Origin: Gammaproteobacteria bacterium
GTDB taxonomy: Bacteria; Pseudomonadota; Gammaproteobacteria; Pseudomonadales; JAUIET01
Reading direction: 5' to 3'
Assembly: GCA_030431775.1 (NCBI GenBank)
Contig: JAUIHW010000025.1
Location: 1-57,102 of the forward strand
Length of the DNA stretch: 57,102 bases
The first letter of the stretch is position 1. The number at the start of each line of letters is the position of its first letter. This document shows, piece by piece, positions 7,135 to 15,118 of the stretch. The position numbers and the translations under genes were made by a program. The notes beneath the pieces were generated by a model that was given only the letters and a program-made list of their open reading frames with translations, ran no database searches and had not been told where the DNA came from.

Positions 7135-7875
7135 ATGCAGTATCCCAGCGACGCCGAGACTCAGGTTATTTACCGGCGCAAATTAAGTCTGTTGGCCACG
7201 CAGGCGTCGACGGCAGCAGCCGGCAATAGCCTGGGCGCGTTACTGGTGGCCGCTATGGTCTGGCCGCATATTCATGCTGCATTGCTGGGCAGCTGGGTTG
7301 GATTAGTGATGCTGATTGTAACGACCCGTTGGCTGCATGTGCGTCGCTACCTGAAAGCCGAAGAGCCAGGCTCCCTAGCTGCCTGCTTCCGCTATTGCGC
7401 CACCAGCGTAGCTGTTAATGGGCTGGTCTGGGGAGGGCTGTTTTCTTACCTGGCCTATTCCCTCGAAGCGACCAGCCTGGCCCCCCCTTTCAGTGTTGTC
7501 TGCGCACTAGCCGCAGGCACCAGTCTGACCTATAACGCTTACTTCAATCCGTTCAAGAATTTTTCCGTCCCGGCGCTTCTCATGCCCGGAATCGTGCTGC
7601 TCGCATCTGGCCCGGATGAAAAACTGTGGATAGCCATCATCGTTCTGGCCTGGTTTACCCTGATGTACTCAATCTCATCCCAGTTGAGCCGCTATCTCGA
7701 GAGCACCGCCAAATACGAAACCGAAAATGTAGCCCTGATTCGCGACCTCGAATACCAACGCGAACACAGCGAACGGCTCAATGAAGAATTGCAGCTGAAA
7801 ACCGAGATCATAGAACGCTTGGCTCGTCGCCAGCAAACCGACAGTGAGTCCAAGCAGCGCGCTGCAGGCGAGTAA
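7135..7875 (+). CDS. Six-TM membrane protein with C-terminal coiled coil, sensor-module-like
   Basis: 246 residues. About six hydrophobic segments (residues 25-75, 95-115, 122-140, 150-165, 172-190) are followed by a charged helical tail (EYQREHSERLNEELQLKTEIIERLARRQQ) predicted to form a coiled coil. This architecture matches the N-terminal membrane input domain of GGDEF proteins and hybrid histidine kinases, where the coiled coil leads into the output domain. Here the frame ends after the coil with no GGDEF, kinase or other output domain. I do not recognise a named family. ATG at 7135 is the first codon of the frame. The paired palindromes upstream suggest that it is regulated on its own. 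Truncation of a longer ancestor is possible, but the DNA downstream belongs to the convergent DMGDH-type gene. Confidence 0.6.
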   Translation: MQYPSDAETQVIYRRKLSLLATQASTAAAGNSLGALLVAAMVWPHIHAALLGSWVGLVMLIVTTRWLHVRRYLKAEEPGSLAACFRYCATSVAVNGLVWGGLFSYLAYSLEATSLAPPFSVVCALAAGTSLTYNAYFNPFKNFSVPALLMPGIVLLASGPDEKLWIAIIVLAWFTLMYSISSQLSRYLESTAKYETENVALIRDLEYQREHSERLNEELQLKTEIIERLARRQQTDSESKQRAAGE

Positions 7876-7917: not shown

Positions 7918-10362
7918 CTAGCGCATCCGCTGGCCCTGCGGATCATAGAATGCGCTCAAGCTCGCATCCGCCGGGAAAGCCTCCCCGGCAACTTCAATTG
8001 CAAACTCGGCGTCCGCCACACGCTGCGTGTCCAGCAAAGGCGCGTGCACGTAGCCCATGCCGATGGCCCCGCCGACAGCATGGCCATACATGGCACTGCT
8101 TAAGTAGCCAAGCACCTCACCATCCATCAATATAGGTTCATTATGGTACAGCAGTGGCTCGGGGTTTCTGAGCTTGAACTGCAGCAGTCGCCGCTGCGGC
8201 AAGCCGGCCTCTTTGGCCGCCAGGAATGCGTCGCGACCAATAAAATCACTGGCCTGCGGTCTCGCCGTGAAACTCAGGCCAGCCTCGACCAGGTTGTCCT
8301 CTGCCGCTACGTCATGCCCCCAATGTCGAAAGCCTTTCTCAAGGCGCAGGCTGTTCACAGCATGCAGGCCGACATTGCGGATTGCATACTCTGACCCGGC
8401 CTGTTGAACGGCCAGCAGCACAGCTTGAGCATGCTCGGCCGGGACAAACAGCTCCCACCCGGTTTCACCAACATAGCTGATTCGCTGCATCCAGATGCGG
8501 GCGCCTGCAAGCTCCGCAAATACCCCGCTGGCAAATGGAAAAGCCGTATCGCCAAGGTCCTGGTCAGTCAGTTTTTGCAATGTTGCGCGCGAATTGGGGC
8601 CCTGAACCGCCAGACAGGCCGTGTCTGTGGTGAAGTCAGTCAGCTCTGTATTGGCTTGCAAGTGCTGCTTCAGCCGCCACCAATCACGATACAGCGAACC
8701 GATTCCAGTCACCACGGCAAATTCCTGCTCAGCGGACCGCATGATGGTTAAATCGGCTTCTATCCCGCCACGAGCGTTCAGCCATTGGGTGTACACCACC
8801 TTGCCCACGGCAACATCCACATCGTTGCAGCTGAGCCGCTGCAGGGTCGCCAACGCGCCTGCTCCACTTACCCGAAATTTGCCAAAAGACGAAATATCAT
8901 AGACGCCTACCGATTCTCGGACAGCCATGTGCTCAGCAGCGCTATTTGCAAACCAGTTCTGACGGCGGTAGCTGTATTGGTACTGAGCCGTCTGGCCTGG
9001 CTCAGCAAACCAGTTGGGGCGTTCAAACCCGCCCACTTCGCCAAAACAGGCGCCTTGCTCGGCGAGCAAATCGTGTACTGGCGAACAGAGCTGGTTACGC
9101 GCAGTGTTGTACTGGTAGAAGGGCCAGTGCATCGCGTAGGTATGGCCAAGCGCTTCAGGTATACGCGCTTCAATATACGCCTGACTTCGTTGCACTGAAT
9201 TGTTGCGCGCCACGTCGGTTTCGGTGATTTCACCGGACGGATGACCATCCACAATCCAGTCGGCCATGATTTTGCCCAGCCCCCCGCCGGCACCAATTCC
9301 TTTGCTGTTCATGCCACAGGCAACCCAAAAACGTTCTACTTCAGGCGAAGGGCCCAGCAGGTGCAGGTTGTCGTTAGTGAAGCTCTCCGGGCCATTGAAA
9401 TAGGTTCGTATACCCGCCTCACCAAAAGCCGGAAAGGTCTCCATGGCACCGAGCAAGTAGGGCTCGATATGTTCCATGTCACAGGGAAACTCATCGAAAC
9501 TGAAGTCTTCAGCAATACGGTCCATCGGGCAGCCAATCGCATTGGACTCAAACCAGCCAACCAGTAATTTGCCGGCATCCTCCTTGAAATACAGCCCCTT
9601 GGCAAAATCGCGCATGACCGGGCGTTTGCTGAGGCCAGGCATCTCCTCGGTAACCACATATTGATGCTCACAGGCATACAATGGCAATCGCACACCAATG
9701 TCGGCAGCAATATCACGCGACCACAAACCACCGCACAAAATGACCTGTCGAGCCTTGATGGTGCCTTGACTACCGCCATCACTGTAACGGGCACCCACCG
9801 CCACATCACCATCGGTTAACACCCGCTCTACCTTGACGCCTTCCAATATCTGCACGCCGCCCTTACGCGCCCCCTTGGCCAGAGCCATGGTTGTATCGAT
9901 TGGATTCGTCTGCCCATCTCGCTCGATGTGCATGCAGCCGATCACACCCTCGGTATTGATTCCAGGGTACATCTGCTCAAGCTCGCGGTTGCTAAGCCAG
10001 GTACTGTCGACTCCAAACACCTTGCCCATTGAAGAGCTACGCTGCAGTTCTTCCAGACGCTCTGCATCGCGCGCCAGGCTCAGGCTGCCAATCCGGCGAT
10101 ACCCGGTAGACTGCCCGGTTTCGGCTTCCAAGGCGGCATACAGCTCATGGGTGTATTGCGCGAGCCTGGTCAGCGTGGGTGTTGGCCACAGCATGCTGCA
10201 AAGACCCGCGGCATGCCAGGTCGTACCGCAGGTTAATTGCTTGCGCTCAAGCAAAACCACATCGTTGACGCCCCGTTTACTAAGATGGTAAGCAATAGAG
10301 CACCCAACAATGCCTCCCCCGATGATCAATATTTCCGTGTCGGTCGGAACTCGCCCTGTCAT
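7918..10362 (-). CDS. DMGDH/SARDH-type FAD oxidoreductase with GcvT domain (paralogue 1)
   Basis: Predicted to oxidise an N-methyl group of a secondary or tertiary amine and pass the one-carbon unit to tetrahydrofolate. The 814 residues carry an N-terminal FAD-binding DAO domain (GGGIVG at 15-20), the TWHAAG motif with His50, which in dimethylglycine and sarcosine dehydrogenases holds FAD covalently, then an FAO-type linker and a C-terminal aminomethyltransferase (GcvT) half from about residue 420 with NSLRLEKGFRHWGHD. ATG at 10362 lies one nucleotide after the TGA of the upstream paralogue, with AGAGG just before it, so the two are translationally coupled; the longer frame to 10416 would overlap that gene. 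Third gene of the mttB operon. Confidence 0.87.
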   Translation of the reverse strand: MTGRVPTDTEILIIGGGIVGCSIAYHLSKRGVNDVVLLERKQLTCGTTWHAAGLCSMLWPTPTLTRLAQYTHELYAALEAETGQSTGYRRIGSLSLARDAERLEELQRSSSMGKVFGVDSTWLSNRELEQMYPGINTEGVIGCMHIERDGQTNPIDTTMALAKGARKGGVQILEGVKVERVLTDGDVAVGARYSDGGSQGTIKARQVILCGGLWSRDIAADIGVRLPLYACEHQYVVTEEMPGLSKRPVMRDFAKGLYFKEDAGKLLVGWFESNAIGCPMDRIAEDFSFDEFPCDMEHIEPYLLGAMETFPAFGEAGIRTYFNGPESFTNDNLHLLGPSPEVERFWVACGMNSKGIGAGGGLGKIMADWIVDGHPSGEITETDVARNNSVQRSQAYIEARIPEALGHTYAMHWPFYQYNTARNQLCSPVHDLLAEQGACFGEVGGFERPNWFAEPGQTAQYQYSYRRQNWFANSAAEHMAVRESVGVYDISSFGKFRVSGAGALATLQRLSCNDVDVAVGKVVYTQWLNARGGIEADLTIMRSAEQEFAVVTGIGSLYRDWWRLKQHLQANTELTDFTTDTACLAVQGPNSRATLQKLTDQDLGDTAFPFASGVFAELAGARIWMQRISYVGETGWELFVPAEHAQAVLLAVQQAGSEYAIRNVGLHAVNSLRLEKGFRHWGHDVAAEDNLVEAGLSFTARPQASDFIGRDAFLAAKEAGLPQRRLLQFKLRNPEPLLYHNEPILMDGEVLGYLSSAMYGHAVGGAIGMGYVHAPLLDTQRVADAEFAIEVAGEAFPADASLSAFYDPQGQRMR

Positions 10363-10363
10363 A

Positions 10364-12781
10364 TCAGCCTCTGAGTCTGCTGTTGTCCGGGTCATAGACT
10401 GCATCCAGTTCAACATGCGCGCGCCGCACGCCCAACGAGGTCATAACCTCCAGCGCCTGCCCCTGCTGCACCAGTTCCGGCTCAAGATAGGCAAACGCCA
10501 GACTGCGGCCTACCCGATGGCCATAGGCACCACCAGTGGTAATCCCGACGTGCCGGCCAGCCTGCAATACCGCCTCATTACCGAAGCAGTCACAGGGCAA
10601 CTCATCATCAAACGCCAGGTAGGCTAGCTGAATATTGCCGCCTTCCTCCAAACGCTGTCGAACCACAGACGCCCCGATGAAATCACGCCCGGTATCAATG
10701 AAACGCTGCATGCCGGCTTCGACGGCGGAAATTTCCTCGGTGAATTCGTTGCCCCACGCGCGATACATTTTTTCCATACGAAGCGAATTAAAGGCATAGC
10801 CACCGAAATCCCGCAGCCCGTGCTCACGGCCTACCCGCCACAGTGACTCGTAGATGCTGGGCAGTTGATAATTCGGCATATGCAGCTCATATCCGAGCTC
10901 ACCCGCGTAACTGACTCGTATGGCGCAGACTTCAGCGCTATCGACCGTTATGGTTTGCTGACTCAACCAGGGAAAGGCGGCCGAAGAAAGGTCATTGTTG
11001 GTGAGCGCCTGTAAAATATCCCGGGATCTGGGCCCTGTGATCAGAACCCCGCCGACAAAATCGGTAAAATTGTCAATCTGCACATCGAAGCCGTCCGCAT
11101 GTTGTTGCATCCAGTGCAGGTCGCGCTGCTCACCGGCAATTGGGCCCACCAGGAAATAGTGATCCTCGCTGATACGGGTGATCGACTGCTCGGTCATGAT
11201 GCCGCCATTAGGACCATGAAAGAGCGTCAGCGACAGGCGCCCGTCCTTGCCGGGCAGTTTATTGCAGGAAAGCCGATCCAAGAACTTTGCCGCATCTTTG
11301 CCACGCACGGCGAAGCGGGCCGCTCCGGATATGTCGATGATACCCGCGGCGTTTTGCACAGCGCGACACTCCTCTGCCACAGCGGCGTGCGCTTCGCTGC
11401 GCGCCCAGCCTGGGCTCTCGTGACGTATTGCGTCAGTGGAAAACCAGGTGGGCTTCTCATAGCCCTGAGCAGTTCCATAATGCGCGCCTTTTTCAGCCAG
11501 CATCGCATACAACGCACTGGTCCGCCTGGCTCTGCCGATCGGCCGCGATTCATTGGCCCCCATCGCCGTGTACATAACCTCGTAGCTTTCAATGCCCTTG
11601 GTAATGCAGTATTCGCGATCGGCCCAGTCGCCGAAGCGACGGGTATCCAACGAGACCATGTTCAATTCGGTTTCACCATAAATCATCCATTGCGCCATAA
11701 ATTTACCCAGCGCACCTTGCGCAATTCCAATACTTGAGCCACAGAGGTTCCAGAAATTGCGCAAGCCTGCAACCGGACCGGCCAACACATTGTCATCAGG
11801 CGTGTGAGTGATCGGTCCATTCACAATGGTTCGAACACCCACCTCGCTGAAGGCGGGCGTCAGCTCCATTGTCCTCTCAAGAAAGGGCATGATTCGCTCC
11901 AGATCGCCGTCAAACAATTCACGGTCAAAGGACCAATCCATGCCGTTCAGTGCCCAGGGTTTAGCCCCCCATGTCTCATAAGGGCCAACCAGAAAGCCCT
12001 TACCTTCCTGGCGAATGTAAGCATTGCTGTAGGAATCCCTGCAAACTGGCAGCTCCTTTTCGAGCTTTTCAATGGCTGGATGAGCATCGGTAACCAGATA
12101 CTGATGTTCAAGATTTACAATAGGCAGCTGCACGCCGACCATTGCCCCCACTTCGACCGCAAAGCAACCGGCCGCATTAACGACATGTTCAGCGCGTACT
12201 GTCCCTTTCTCGGTCACCACCTCCCATTCACCGCTGGCTAATGCGTTAATTTCCAGTACCCGATTAAACCGGCTGATCGTTGCGCCGTTTGCACGCGCCA
12301 ATTGGGACATTGGCATCACGACCGACGTGGGGTCCACATGGCCGTCGTTGGGTGTGCTGACAATGATTCGCGCTTTGTCAAAGTTCATCAGTGGATTGAT
12401 GGCTTGTGCTTCGGCCTTACTGACAATGTGAAACTCGCAGGGCACGTTGGGTGCGCGTGCTTCCAGATTACGAAACCATTGCTCCTCAAGCTCGCTGTAA
12501 CCGATTCGTAAACTGCCGCACTTGTGAAACGTCGACGGATCCCCGGTTTCCGCAGGCAGGATTTTGTCATACAACTCAATCGATGCGTTATGGATTTTAG
12601 CCACCGTATGGTTGCCAATGAAATTGGAACACAAACCGGCCGCGTGCCAGGTGGACCCGCTGGTCAGCTCCCCTTTTTCAAGCAGCAGGGTGTCAGTCCA
12701 CCCTTCTTTACTCAAGTGATACAGCAGGCTTACTCCCAGTGAACCACCTCCAATAATGACTACACGCGCATGCTCTAACAT
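10364..12781 (-). CDS. DMGDH/SARDH-type FAD oxidoreductase with GcvT domain (paralogue 2)
   Basis: 805 residues with the same architecture as its downstream neighbour: dinucleotide motif GGGSLG at 11-16, covalent-FAD motif TWHAAG with His46, and a C-terminal GcvT domain containing NSLRMEKMYRAWGNE. The two proteins are clearly diverged along their length, so this is an old duplication or two separate recruits, each probably acting on a different methylation state. ATG at 12781 is preferred over the TTG at 12790. It follows the mttB-family gene by 36 bp. The family uses an ETF or oxygen as electron acceptor; no ETF gene is in the window. Confidence 0.86.
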   Translation of the reverse strand: MLEHARVVIIGGGSLGVSLLYHLSKEGWTDTLLLEKGELTSGSTWHAAGLCSNFIGNHTVAKIHNASIELYDKILPAETGDPSTFHKCGSLRIGYSELEEQWFRNLEARAPNVPCEFHIVSKAEAQAINPLMNFDKARIIVSTPNDGHVDPTSVVMPMSQLARANGATISRFNRVLEINALASGEWEVVTEKGTVRAEHVVNAAGCFAVEVGAMVGVQLPIVNLEHQYLVTDAHPAIEKLEKELPVCRDSYSNAYIRQEGKGFLVGPYETWGAKPWALNGMDWSFDRELFDGDLERIMPFLERTMELTPAFSEVGVRTIVNGPITHTPDDNVLAGPVAGLRNFWNLCGSSIGIAQGALGKFMAQWMIYGETELNMVSLDTRRFGDWADREYCITKGIESYEVMYTAMGANESRPIGRARRTSALYAMLAEKGAHYGTAQGYEKPTWFSTDAIRHESPGWARSEAHAAVAEECRAVQNAAGIIDISGAARFAVRGKDAAKFLDRLSCNKLPGKDGRLSLTLFHGPNGGIMTEQSITRISEDHYFLVGPIAGEQRDLHWMQQHADGFDVQIDNFTDFVGGVLITGPRSRDILQALTNNDLSSAAFPWLSQQTITVDSAEVCAIRVSYAGELGYELHMPNYQLPSIYESLWRVGREHGLRDFGGYAFNSLRMEKMYRAWGNEFTEEISAVEAGMQRFIDTGRDFIGASVVRQRLEEGGNIQLAYLAFDDELPCDCFGNEAVLQAGRHVGITTGGAYGHRVGRSLAFAYLEPELVQQGQALEVMTSLGVRRAHVELDAVYDPDNSRLRG

Positions 12782-12817
12782 AGTGTCCAAATTCCAGCTT
12801 TGTATGGGTTTTGCTTG

Positions 12818-14383
12818 CTACTCACCGCGCCCAATTGCCGAGCGGCTAAGCGCAATTGGAAACTGGGCGCGTATCTGCCGGTCAACCTCGTCACTGACAT
12901 GCGCAGGAAAGTAACTCTGCAATATGTCTTTCTTGCGCTTGATTGCATTGGCGACAGGGTCTGGCCGGCCTGCATCCAGCCAGTCACCCGGGCTCGCGCG
13001 GTTGAACAGCTCAGGATAAAGATACTCGGTCTGCATAACGCCCAGCGTCTGATCAGAGCCCAGGTAATGTCCCTTATTGCCCAGGCAAACATCGCGTAGA
13101 GTGTCAAAACCCAAAGTCTCATCAGTGACAGCTATTCCTTTCACAAGTCGCAGACAGGCACCCAGGAGATCATTATCCATCAGCAGGCTTTCCGGGCATA
13201 CACCCAGCAGGCTTGCATACATACCCGCAGATTCATAAACAATATTGGCACCAGACAACGCAGCCACTGCCGCTGTGTAGGCCCGCTCGGCACCGCCCTG
13301 ATGATCCGGCAGCTTGGAATCGGACATACCAGCCGCGGTTCCGGTCGGCAAATCCAGGTAAGCACCAAGTTGACAACAGGCTGCTGACAACAAGCCCTGC
13401 TCGGGCGAACCGCCGCTCATCGCTCCGGTGCGCAAATCCGAAACGAATGGCCAGGTACCAATAATTGCTGGCGCACCGGGTTTAATGGCATTGACATAAA
13501 CCAGCCCTCCCAGACACTCAGCCCAGGCCTGTGCCACGGCACCCGCGAGACAGGGCGGGGCCGTCGCTCCTGCCTGGCCGGCGGAGAGCAGCAGTACCGG
13601 CATGCCACCCTCCACGGCCACCCGCAAACAGTCCAATGAGTCTTCGGCAAATTTCATGGGCGGCACAACAAAGCAATTGGACTGACTGACGAACGGGCGG
13701 GCTCGCCATGCTTCCTCACTGCCCGCGACCAGATGCAGCATCTTAAGAGTTTCCGCCACATGGCTACCCTGACTCCAGGCAGCGCCCACGTGTTTGGTCG
13801 TTCCCATTACACAGTTGTAAGTCGTGTTCAGCTCCATCTCCGCGGGGTCTTCAATATCCCGGGCCACACAGGTACGCTGGAACATGTGTATGTGCTCGCA
13901 TTGGTCTACGATGCGAGCCATGTCATACAAGTCCTGCGCCAGAGAATCCCGATATGACCGGGTTTCAGCATCGACCACCATCACCGCAGCGCCTGCCGTA
14001 GAAAAATGCACTTTCTGGCCGGAGAGGTCGAGATCGTGTTTGGGATCCTGACCGTGCAGTACCAAATTGCGCTGGCACAAGGACAAGGCCTTGTCGACAA
14101 CATCGCGGGGTATCCTCAATCGACCATCATCCCCAAGGCGGGCCCCAAAGGCGGTGCACACGTCGATGCAGTGCGCGGTCGCATCGGCAAAGCCAACTTC
14201 CTCAAGAATGCGATAGCAGGTATCCAGAACTTTTGGTAAATCGTGCTCGGCCAGCGGCCGGTATTGGCCTCCCACCTCACCGGGCTGTACCGGTTTCAGC
14301 TCCTCCGCCAGCGGTGCGTTGCGAAGAGCAACCCGTGATGCACGCCCCCCAGACCGTCTCGCCATTGCTAACCCCACTGCCAT
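12818..14383 (-). CDS. Trimethylamine methyltransferase (MttB) superfamily protein, non-pyrrolysine
   Basis: 521 residues, uninterrupted by an in-frame TAG, so this is the non-pyrrolysine branch of the MttB superfamily (the branch that includes glycine-betaine methyltransferase MtgB). Recognisable family blocks are LDTCYRILEEVGFADAT, the PRDVVDKALSLC segment, AWAECLGGLVYVNAIKPG and GGSPEQGLLSAACCQLGAYL. Characterised members transfer a methyl group from a quaternary amine to a corrinoid protein. It is the first gene of a three-gene operon with two DMGDH-like flavoproteins, so a quaternary or tertiary methylamine is the likely substrate. No corrinoid protein or corrinoid:folate methyltransferase is encoded in the window. 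ATG at 14383 is used; ATG at 14365 is possible. A palindrome lies 44 bp upstream. Confidence 0.87.
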   Translation of the reverse strand: MAVGLAMARRSGGRASRVALRNAPLAEELKPVQPGEVGGQYRPLAEHDLPKVLDTCYRILEEVGFADATAHCIDVCTAFGARLGDDGRLRIPRDVVDKALSLCQRNLVLHGQDPKHDLDLSGQKVHFSTAGAAVMVVDAETRSYRDSLAQDLYDMARIVDQCEHIHMFQRTCVARDIEDPAEMELNTTYNCVMGTTKHVGAAWSQGSHVAETLKMLHLVAGSEEAWRARPFVSQSNCFVVPPMKFAEDSLDCLRVAVEGGMPVLLLSAGQAGATAPPCLAGAVAQAWAECLGGLVYVNAIKPGAPAIIGTWPFVSDLRTGAMSGGSPEQGLLSAACCQLGAYLDLPTGTAAGMSDSKLPDHQGGAERAYTAAVAALSGANIVYESAGMYASLLGVCPESLLMDNDLLGACLRLVKGIAVTDETLGFDTLRDVCLGNKGHYLGSDQTLGVMQTEYLYPELFNRASPGDWLDAGRPDPVANAIKRKKDILQSYFPAHVSDEVDRQIRAQFPIALSRSAIGRGE

Positions 14384-14539: not shown

Positions 14540-15118
14540 TTGTTCGCCCTGCTTACTGCCCGCTTGCCATTGACCGCAGTATCTGGCTTAGAAGTACAAG
14601 AAGTTCTGCCACAAGTGATTGTCCACCAGCCACCAAAGGAATGCCCAAGCTGCCGCTGTCAGCGAATAGAGCAGGTAGCACTGTCCTCTCTGGATAAATT
14701 GCGCGGACGCATCGCCCGCTTCCATTGCCCCAAGTGCTCGGCCAAGGCCTACATTCTTGGCAACTCAGAAAAAAGTCGGCCAGCAAAGCCACCGCCTGCC
14801 CGCGATCCGTTTCTCGCCGGTGGCTACGAATATCTGCTGGGGAACAAATACAGCAAAGGCGCGCAGGTCCCGCAGAATGACGTTTTGGCTTTTGAAAACT
14901 ATCTGGCGTCTGCCAAATTGGGTAACCCGCATGGTCAGTTCCATACCGGCTTGTGCTACCACGAAGGCAAAGGCGTGGCTGCCGACCCCATGCTGGCATA
15001 TTACTGGGTAGGCCGCGCTGCCGAGCAAGGTCAGGGCCAGGCAGTACGCTTGCTGCCGGAACTGGAGCACTTGTTCGAGCATGCGCAAATGGAACATACT
15101 TGCGCTGAACCGTCTTAA
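14540..15118 (+). CDS. Zinc-ribbon protein with Sel1-like repeats
   Basis: 192 residues, not a family I can name. The N-terminal half has a four-cysteine zinc ribbon, CPSC at about 35-38 and CPKC at about 63-66, separated by a basic stretch. After a Pro-rich linker (RPAKPPPARDPF) come Sel1-type solenoid repeats: ALGNPHGQFHTGLCYHEGKG and VAADPMLAYYWVGRAAEQGQ are one repeat and the start of the next. Such repeats mediate protein-protein contacts. No signal peptide or membrane segment is visible, so it is probably cytoplasmic. The start is uncertain: TTG at 14540 is the only reasonable initiation codon in frame. The permease gene follows after 20 bp, so they may share a transcript. Confidence 0.6.
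   Translation: MFALLTARLPLTAVSGLEVQEVLPQVIVHQPPKECPSCRCQRIEQVALSSLDKLRGRIARFHCPKCSAKAYILGNSEKSRPAKPPPARDPFLAGGYEYLLGNKYSKGAQVPQNDVLAFENYLASAKLGNPHGQFHTGLCYHEGKGVAADPMLAYYWVGRAAEQGQGQAVRLLPELEHLFEHAQMEHTCAEPS

Follow-up and report, generated by a model that had tools for sequence, protein, structure and literature searches.

The window analysed here, positions 1 to 57,102 of contig JAUIHW010000025.1 from a gammaproteobacterial assembly (GCA_030431775.1; 57,102 nucleotides, nt), contains three genes lying head to tail on the minus strand. The first encodes a homologue of the methyltransferase MttB, and the following two encode flavoproteins of the dimethylglycine dehydrogenase (DMGDH) type, referred to as DMG_B and DMG_A. 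We propose, with a probability of about 70%, that this operon demethylates a single quaternary (trimethylated) amine at its nitrogen in three steps, and that its corrinoid partner MtgC is encoded elsewhere in the genome. The operon most likely represents an uncharted branch of the B12-dependent demethylation known from aerobic marine bacteria rather than new chemistry.

The window MttB matches the PF06253 (MTTB) family at 361.7 bits, against a gathering cut-off of 25, and reaches 332 bits with TIGR02369 (trimethylamine–corrinoid protein Co-methyltransferase), below the curated cut-off of 525. Its AlphaFold model has a pLDDT (predicted local distance difference test) of 91.0. Superimposing the model on MttB-superfamily entries (fold comparison VIA) gave Z scores of 49.2–52.2 over 454–466 residues, with 52.2 for Methanosarcina MttB (7xcl) and 50.4 for MtgB (2qne). 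We interpreted the active-site positions on the basis of Methanosarcina barkeri MttB (PMC9842639). Met353 occupies the column of pyrrolysine-334, which agrees with the preliminary description of the protein as a non-pyrrolysine homologue. Methionine is also present in this column in all 76 distinct close relatives (at least 65% identity; the alignment has 77 rows including one duplicate, L128 = L040), and all of them share Gly110, Ala111, Ala249 and Tyr364.

Columns 110/249/334/364 read G/A/M/Y in the window MttB versus Y/L/L/L in 2qne. In 13 MtgB-type rows, position 110 is Tyr (10) or Gly (3), 111 is Gly or Ser, 249 is Phe, 334 is Leu, Val or Thr, and 364 is Leu, Met or Asn. Thr111 and Gly372 of MttB contact the corrinoid (PMC9842639), and their columns hold Ala and Leu in the window MttB. 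These two columns decide nothing, because 2qne differs there too (Gly and Phe). A comparison of the modelled active site with MtgB had been suggested: the fold of the model is the family fold, and the pocket residues are unlike those of MtgB. These columns may have a role in betaine specificity.

In a tree of 48 rows, the paralogues of the same genome on contigs C64, C120 (two) and C106 group with 2qne and 4yyc, and the window MttB is found opposite them at a split of 100/100. Judged from this tree, which is midpoint-rooted for drawing only, the window MttB forms a branch separate from MtgB. The clade of its close relatives is firm (100/100) and contains both DMGDH-linked and mtgC-linked members. 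The methanogen MttB (7xcl) joins the window side with support of 98/90. Its branch is long, and a long-branch warning was issued by the tree program for both 7xcl and L119_wMttB_26. A non-pyrrolysine trimethylamine methyltransferase would suit this tree position, the shared Gly110 and Tyr364, and the best structural match to 7xcl. However, the pyrrolysine is absent, the grouping carries the long-branch warning, and Gly110 also occurs among the MtgB-type rows, so that we regard a trimethylamine enzyme as very improbable.

Both flavoproteins carry the Pfam domains DAO, FAO_M, GCV_T and GCV_T_C. The nearest entry of DMG_B in the PDB is dimethylglycine dehydrogenase 5l46 (562.5 bits), DMG_A matches 4pab at 455.6 bits, and the two proteins are 31% identical to each other. 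The histidines of the TWHAAGL motif, His46 in DMG_B and His50 in DMG_A, align with the covalent flavin adenine dinucleotide (FAD) histidine of DMGDH. We take His225, Tyr259, Asp552, Tyr651 and Glu658 of dimethylglycine oxidase (DMGO, 1pj5) to be functional residues, with Asp552, Tyr651 and Glu658 as the folate site. Inspection of the alignments by eye shows that both flavoproteins keep the positions of His225, Tyr259, Tyr651 and Glu658; in the Asp552 column, DMG_A has Asp and DMG_B, like 5l46, has Glu. Based on the FAD and GcvT-type domains, the covalent-FAD histidine and the folate-site residues, both belong to the DMGDH family. The coupling of MttB to two proteins of this folate-dependent demethylase family, each keeping its histidine, had been noticed before, and the domains, alignments and likely gene starts all agree with it.

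The longest open reading frame (ORF) of DMG_B (10364–12790, 808 aa) begins with TTG and that of DMG_A (7918–10416, 832 aa) begins with ATG. The likely starts are the ATG codons at 12781 and 10362 (Table 1), chosen from the DNA and the N-termini of relatives. From these starts, the gap between the DMG_B stop and the DMG_A ATG is 1 nt. The flanking genes, a Sel1-repeat protein gene at 14540 and a gene for a protein without a Pfam match ending at 7875, are both on the plus strand. Because the neighbors on both sides lie on the other strand, the three genes form one unit by arrangement, and we infer from this arrangement that they are co-transcribed. Scans for sigma-70 promoters and terminators gave nothing above chance at the operon.

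No corrinoid protein is encoded in the operon, as the preliminary description had stated: profile searches of the genome with PF02607 and PF02310 gave no match on the window contig. The source genome (98.3% complete) contains five PF06253 genes, and a full corrinoid set is located on another contig, C64. The gene order there is an MtgB-type gene, MtgC (PF02310 and PF02607), DUF1638, a PF13769 protein, MtgD (PF00809) and a RACo/RamA-type activator, so that MtgC, MtgD and an activator are all encoded in this genome. The C64 MtgB-type protein scores 763 bits to Sinorhizobium 4yyc and 458 bits to Desulfitobacterium MtgB 2qne. PF02607 has only two matches genome-wide, the C64 MtgC and a 1214-aa protein read as MetH from its length and sequence. 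Three further PF02310 frames, on C18 (132 aa), C57 (143 aa) and C16 (721 aa), have no PF02607. Hence the genome searches found five MttB-type proteins and a single stand-alone corrinoid protein of the two-domain kind. A pterin methyltransferase of the MtrH type (PF02007) was not found in the genome, and the pterin protein on C64 is of the PF00809 type. It had been proposed either that the partners are located elsewhere or that the methyl group is handed on without them. The C64 set speaks for the first possibility and, like the linkage seen in relatives, against the second.

We then compared the occurrence of MttB and MtgC in a class sample of 370 genomes at least 90% complete, the window's own included, with an MtgC threshold of 300 bits. 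At most four MttB candidates were scored per genome, which makes the MttB counts per genome lower bounds. MtgC was present in 22 of the 23 MttB-positive genomes, the exception being G347, and in 0 of the other 347; the next-best short-frame match scored 176.6 bits. MtgC is present in each of the 13 genomes, the source genome among them, whose window-type MttB reaches at least 52% identity. Of 50 genomes that gave close relatives, 47 also contain MtgC (63–90% identity), two of them only as a contig-end piece or short frame; the three genomes without it are small assemblies of 0.8–1.3 Mb with no stated completeness. These 50 were hand-chosen from 80 loci, and most loci linked to mtgC, mtgD or ramA (L078, L087, L102, L104, L105, L109–L112) fall outside them. 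The co-occurrence is a correlation only, because the genomes are related and most carry other MttB paralogues.

The gene linkage to the corrinoid set is stronger evidence than the co-occurrence across genomes. The related loci are the best 80 of 137 (at least 65% identity) and include SUP05-cluster and Pseudothioglobus genomes; four of them (L090, L107, L108, L113) have no called window-type MttB ORF, which leaves 76. A gene of the corrinoid set is located within the analysed stretch in 11 of the 76 loci, in one of them 9 kb away. The distance from the window-type mttB to mtgC is 46 nt in L040, 147 nt in L087 and 172 nt in L102. In L109, mttB lies 34 nt behind a Vf101-like gene that follows mtgC; in L111, it lies 34 nt after mtgD and ramA; in L110 and L112, it is behind an mtgC–DUF1638–ramA series. 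An MtgB-type gene occurs within the stretch in four loci. The mtgB position of C64 is occupied in L118 by a 43% relative, ahead of mtgC–DUF1638–Vf101–mtgD–ramA.

The same loci revealed the conservation of the flavoprotein partners. A DMGDH-type gene is found within 600 nt downstream of mttB on the same strand in 42 of the 76 loci (40 with DMG_B as the best match and two with a paralogue on C57), and 64 loci have at least 2,600 nt downstream of mttB. The full order MttB–DMG_B–DMG_A is present in 12 loci, after L076, with a split DMG_B, was taken out of 13 rows with two DMGDH genes. Since 42 loci share the arrangement and 12 have both flavoproteins in order, it is not due to chance. Nine more loci have DMGDH genes converging on mttB, and five have them upstream on the other strand.

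Outside the Gammaproteobacteria, the megaplasmid of Ruegeria pomeroyi DSS-3 carries a divergent LysR gene followed by genes for MttB (WP_011242090.1, 45–46% identity), a class III aminotransferase, a DMG_A-like protein (38%), a protein like the C57 paralogue and DMG_B (43/41%) and an Xsc-like thiamine pyrophosphate (TPP) enzyme that, at 401 bits, falls short of its cut-off of 620; the junctions are -4 to +3 nt. In Sinorhizobium sp. K101 and Shinella sp. PSBB067, the order is a DMGDH-type gene, a DMG_A-like gene (46%) and then mttB (54 and 53%). The second flavoprotein frame of S. meliloti Ak57 is only 441 aa long. Other alphaproteobacterial relatives have one DMGDH-type gene, and Leisingera has a ring-hydroxylating dioxygenase gene in its place. 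The presence of the same three components in different orders suggests a three-step demethylation, in which one quaternary step would be carried out by MttB and two steps would be oxidative. The earlier idea that the two flavoproteins take successive methyl groups gains support from this recurrence of the trio in distant lineages.

In the first step, the MttB homologue would take one methyl off the quaternary nitrogen and load it on Co(I) of the C64-encoded MtgC. MtgD would hand the MtgC-bound methyl to tetrahydrofolate (THF), and the RamA-like protein would re-activate the cobalt. These three partners may be common to all five MttB paralogues of the genome. In the second step, DMG_B would oxidise the dimethylated product and pass the methyl carbon onto folate as methylene-THF. 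In the third step, DMG_A would oxidise the monomethylated product, again making methylene-THF and leaving a primary amine. If the substrate is glycine betaine, the products would be dimethylglycine, sarcosine and glycine in turn.

Several observations weigh against this proposal. Genome G347 (98% complete; C27, L117/L137) has one 41% relative of the window MttB and neither MtgC nor a RamA-like protein. In its genus-mate G413, however, MtgC and RamA share a contig, so the equivalent contig may be missing from the G347 assembly. The RamA-like activator was found in two of seven genomes searched (G413 and G002), and G015 has MtgC with no activator match. MtgC may also be there solely to serve other MttB paralogues or to make methionine. 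Genome G002 contains three MttB proteins (353, 349 and 312 bits), all in the window branch of the tree; in the other genomes of the same table, MtgB-type proteins score about 607–765 bits, with further matches at 244 (G048) and 161 (G050, partial). The G002 cluster reads mtgC–DUF1638–Vf101–mtgD–ramA, and the ORF before mtgC is read as mtgE-like from its sequence; since it precedes mtgC, the MtgC of G002 may also serve methionine synthesis. Four further points speak against glycine betaine as the substrate: the genome already has the C64 MtgB-type protein, the active-site columns are unlike MtgB, the R. pomeroyi operon includes an aminotransferase and the Xsc-like enzyme, and the betaine-induced PF06253 proteins named in the main text of a study of that strain are SPO2108 and SPO2134, with no SPOA gene among them (PMC12478193).

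A corrinoid-independent MttB, passing the methyl straight to the flavoproteins or to folate, would account for an operon without a corrinoid gene, for G347 and for the three small assemblies that have close relatives and show no MtgC. The co-occurrence and linkage of mttB with the genes for MtgC, MtgD and RamA oppose it, as does the possible missing contig in G347, and we give it hardly any chance. As the leading reading, corrinoid-free transfer is rejected because of the C64 set together with this co-occurrence and linkage. The corrinoid set found elsewhere in the genome thus counts against the novel methyl hand-off that had been put forward, and a new way of handing on the methyl group is not supported.

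Returning to the MtgC-dependent module, its substrate is most likely glycine betaine or another carboxylated or acidic betaine. We claim no single substrate, because the GcvA-type regulator, the carnitine-type genes, the semialdehyde dehydrogenase, the HD-domain protein and the Xsc-like enzyme point in different ways. A divergent LysR gene is present in 35 of the 76 loci, named GcvA-type from one scanned member (L039, 339.5 bits, cut-off 288). In the nearest relative, L035, the LysR frame upstream of mttB is only 89 aa (9698–9967), and in the window no LysR gene lies between mttB and the next gene. In L036, mttB and the DMGDH gene are separated by genes for a thioesterase and a beta-keto acid cleavage enzyme, resembling carnitine-to-betaine conversion; both enzymes are under their NCBIfam cut-offs, and the beta-keto acid cleavage enzyme is above its Pfam cut-off. 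A methylmalonate-semialdehyde dehydrogenase gene (TIGR01722, over the cut-off) adjoins a pair of DMGDH genes in L109, and in L055 it lies upstream of mttB.

With glycine betaine as the substrate, the operon would be a second betaine-to-glycine operon beside the MtgB-type one. The similarity of DMG_B to DMGDH, the GcvA-type regulator family, the L036 genes and the placement of all three G002 MttB proteins in the window branch are consistent with this. Nevertheless, the pocket columns differ from MtgB in every one of the 76 close relatives, an MtgB-type protein is already encoded, and the R. pomeroyi proteomics names other PF06253 proteins (PMC12478193), which makes this version of the module less likely than not. 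Alternatively, the same module may act on a betaine of another kind, such as taurine betaine, beta-alanine betaine or some other acidic quaternary amine, and the freed amine may be transaminated. The R. pomeroyi operon, in which the MttB and two DMGDH-type genes are accompanied by the class III aminotransferase and the Xsc-like enzyme, the dehydrogenase genes of L109 and L055, and the distinct active site of the window branch point this way. On the other hand, the R. pomeroyi MttB is only 45–46% identical, the L055 dehydrogenase gene is beside genes read as inositol-type from sequence, and the GcvA-type regulators point to glycine; we hold this version tentatively, at somewhat less than even odds.

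At just under an even chance, we place the following combined view. The window branch would have an uncharacterised MttB specificity, not for glycine betaine; with its two DMGDH-type partners it would strip all three N-methyls from a quaternary amine, borrowing a shared MtgC–MtgD; and Gamma- and Alphaproteobacteria would have put together the same module design, with varying gene order, to use more than one betaine.

B12-dependent demethylation of glycine betaine by MtgBCD is published for aerobic marine bacteria, namely R. pomeroyi, and genes of the later demethylation steps are often near mtgBCD (PMC12478193). The same source reports up to seven PF06253 genes per genome in marine bacteria, possibly for other methylated compounds, and suggests a shared corrinoid protein. 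The source genome resembles that system in having PF06253 genes with MtgC, MtgD, RamA and DUF1638, and several PF06253 paralogues (PMC12478193). In contrast, the window MttB is in another branch than the C64 MtgB-type protein and differs in its active-site signature, and its gene is grouped with two DMGDH-type genes away from the corrinoid cluster. A precedent for sharing is Eubacterium limosum, in which a single corrinoid protein serves several members of the MttB family (PMC8604678, Fig. 6 legend; also PMC12478193): the substrate-specific MtpB, MtcB and MtyB act with MtqC and MtqA (PMC8604678). Unlike the present case, E. limosum is an acetogen feeding the Wood–Ljungdahl pathway, and the consulted part of that paper mentions no DMGDH partners (PMC8604678).

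DMG_A and DMG_B share the domain order, the covalent-FAD histidine, the His/Tyr pair and the folate-site residues with DMGDH (5l46, 4pab) and DMGO (1pj5), whereas the window has two diverged copies in one operon with MttB. Methanosarcina MttB (7xcl, PMC9842639) is alike in fold, Gly110 and Tyr364, and differs in that the window MttB has Met for pyrrolysine and Ala for Thr111 and Met249. A literature search of titles and abstract openings showed no description of an operon of MttB plus two DMGDH-type genes.

Betaines are abundant nitrogen osmolytes of the sea. Among PF06253 genes, the operon is a widespread case without an assigned substrate, and its two partner enzymes narrow the chemistry to complete N-demethylation. 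R. pomeroyi DSS-3 carries a related operon, and mutants have been made in that strain (PMC12478193). The substrate is directly testable. The operon is real, conserved and mostly explained; most likely it belongs to the B12-dependent demethylation machinery of aerobic marine bacteria, and what stands out is that its branch has no assigned substrate and brings along two enzymes for the later steps.

Table 1. Coordinates of the operon and selected codons in the window
Feature	Position	Strand	Basis
MttB-superfamily methyltransferase, 521 aa from first ATG	12818..14383	-	PF06253; relatives start at Met coded at 14365
Codon of Met353, column of pyrrolysine-334 of M. barkeri MttB	13325..13327	-	alignment, codon checked
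MttB stop to likely DMG_B ATG, 36-nt gap	12782..12817	-	sequence
DMG_B, DMGDH-type flavoprotein, 805 aa from ATG 12781	10364..12781	-	Pfam domains, PDB match 5l46
Codon of DMG_B His46, aligned to covalent-FAD His of DMGDH	12644..12646	-	alignment, codon checked
DMG_A, second DMGDH-type flavoprotein, 814 aa from ATG 10362	7918..10362	-	domains, match to 4pab
Codon of DMG_A His50, aligned to covalent-FAD His of DMGDH	10213..10215	-	alignment, codon checked

We also notice several additional genes around the mttB paralogues and relatives. An HD-domain protein, weakly similar to PhnZ/TmpB oxygenases, is encoded in L019 (13080–13655, the genome's own C64), L127 (12318–12872) and L039 (13998–14639). 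Its gene comes after ramA, with a 4-nt overlap in L127, or after DMG_B, and relatives occur in 14 of the 76 loci. A HyuA/caprolactamase-alpha-like protein is encoded near mttB or the mtgC cluster in L040 (12452–14449), L118 (2076–4301) and L035 (7593–9599); the L040 protein was scanned and is far under the cut-off, and those of L118 and L035 were judged by sequence. In L055 (4179–9889, SUP05) and L083 (3171–8989, Oceanospirillaceae), the MttB–DMGDH operon adjoins genes for transport and catabolism of the inositol or sugar type; these were named from their sequences, apart from the semialdehyde dehydrogenase gene of L055, which was scanned. In the source genome, the other MttB paralogues on C120 (L021, 9474–18130) and C106 (L023, 9542–12212) are beside genes that, read from their sequences, encode a DMGDH-like protein, an FAD oxidoreductase, a BCCT-like transporter or a Rieske-type oxygenase. 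On C106, the mttB ORF overlaps the Rieske-type ORF by 20 nt.

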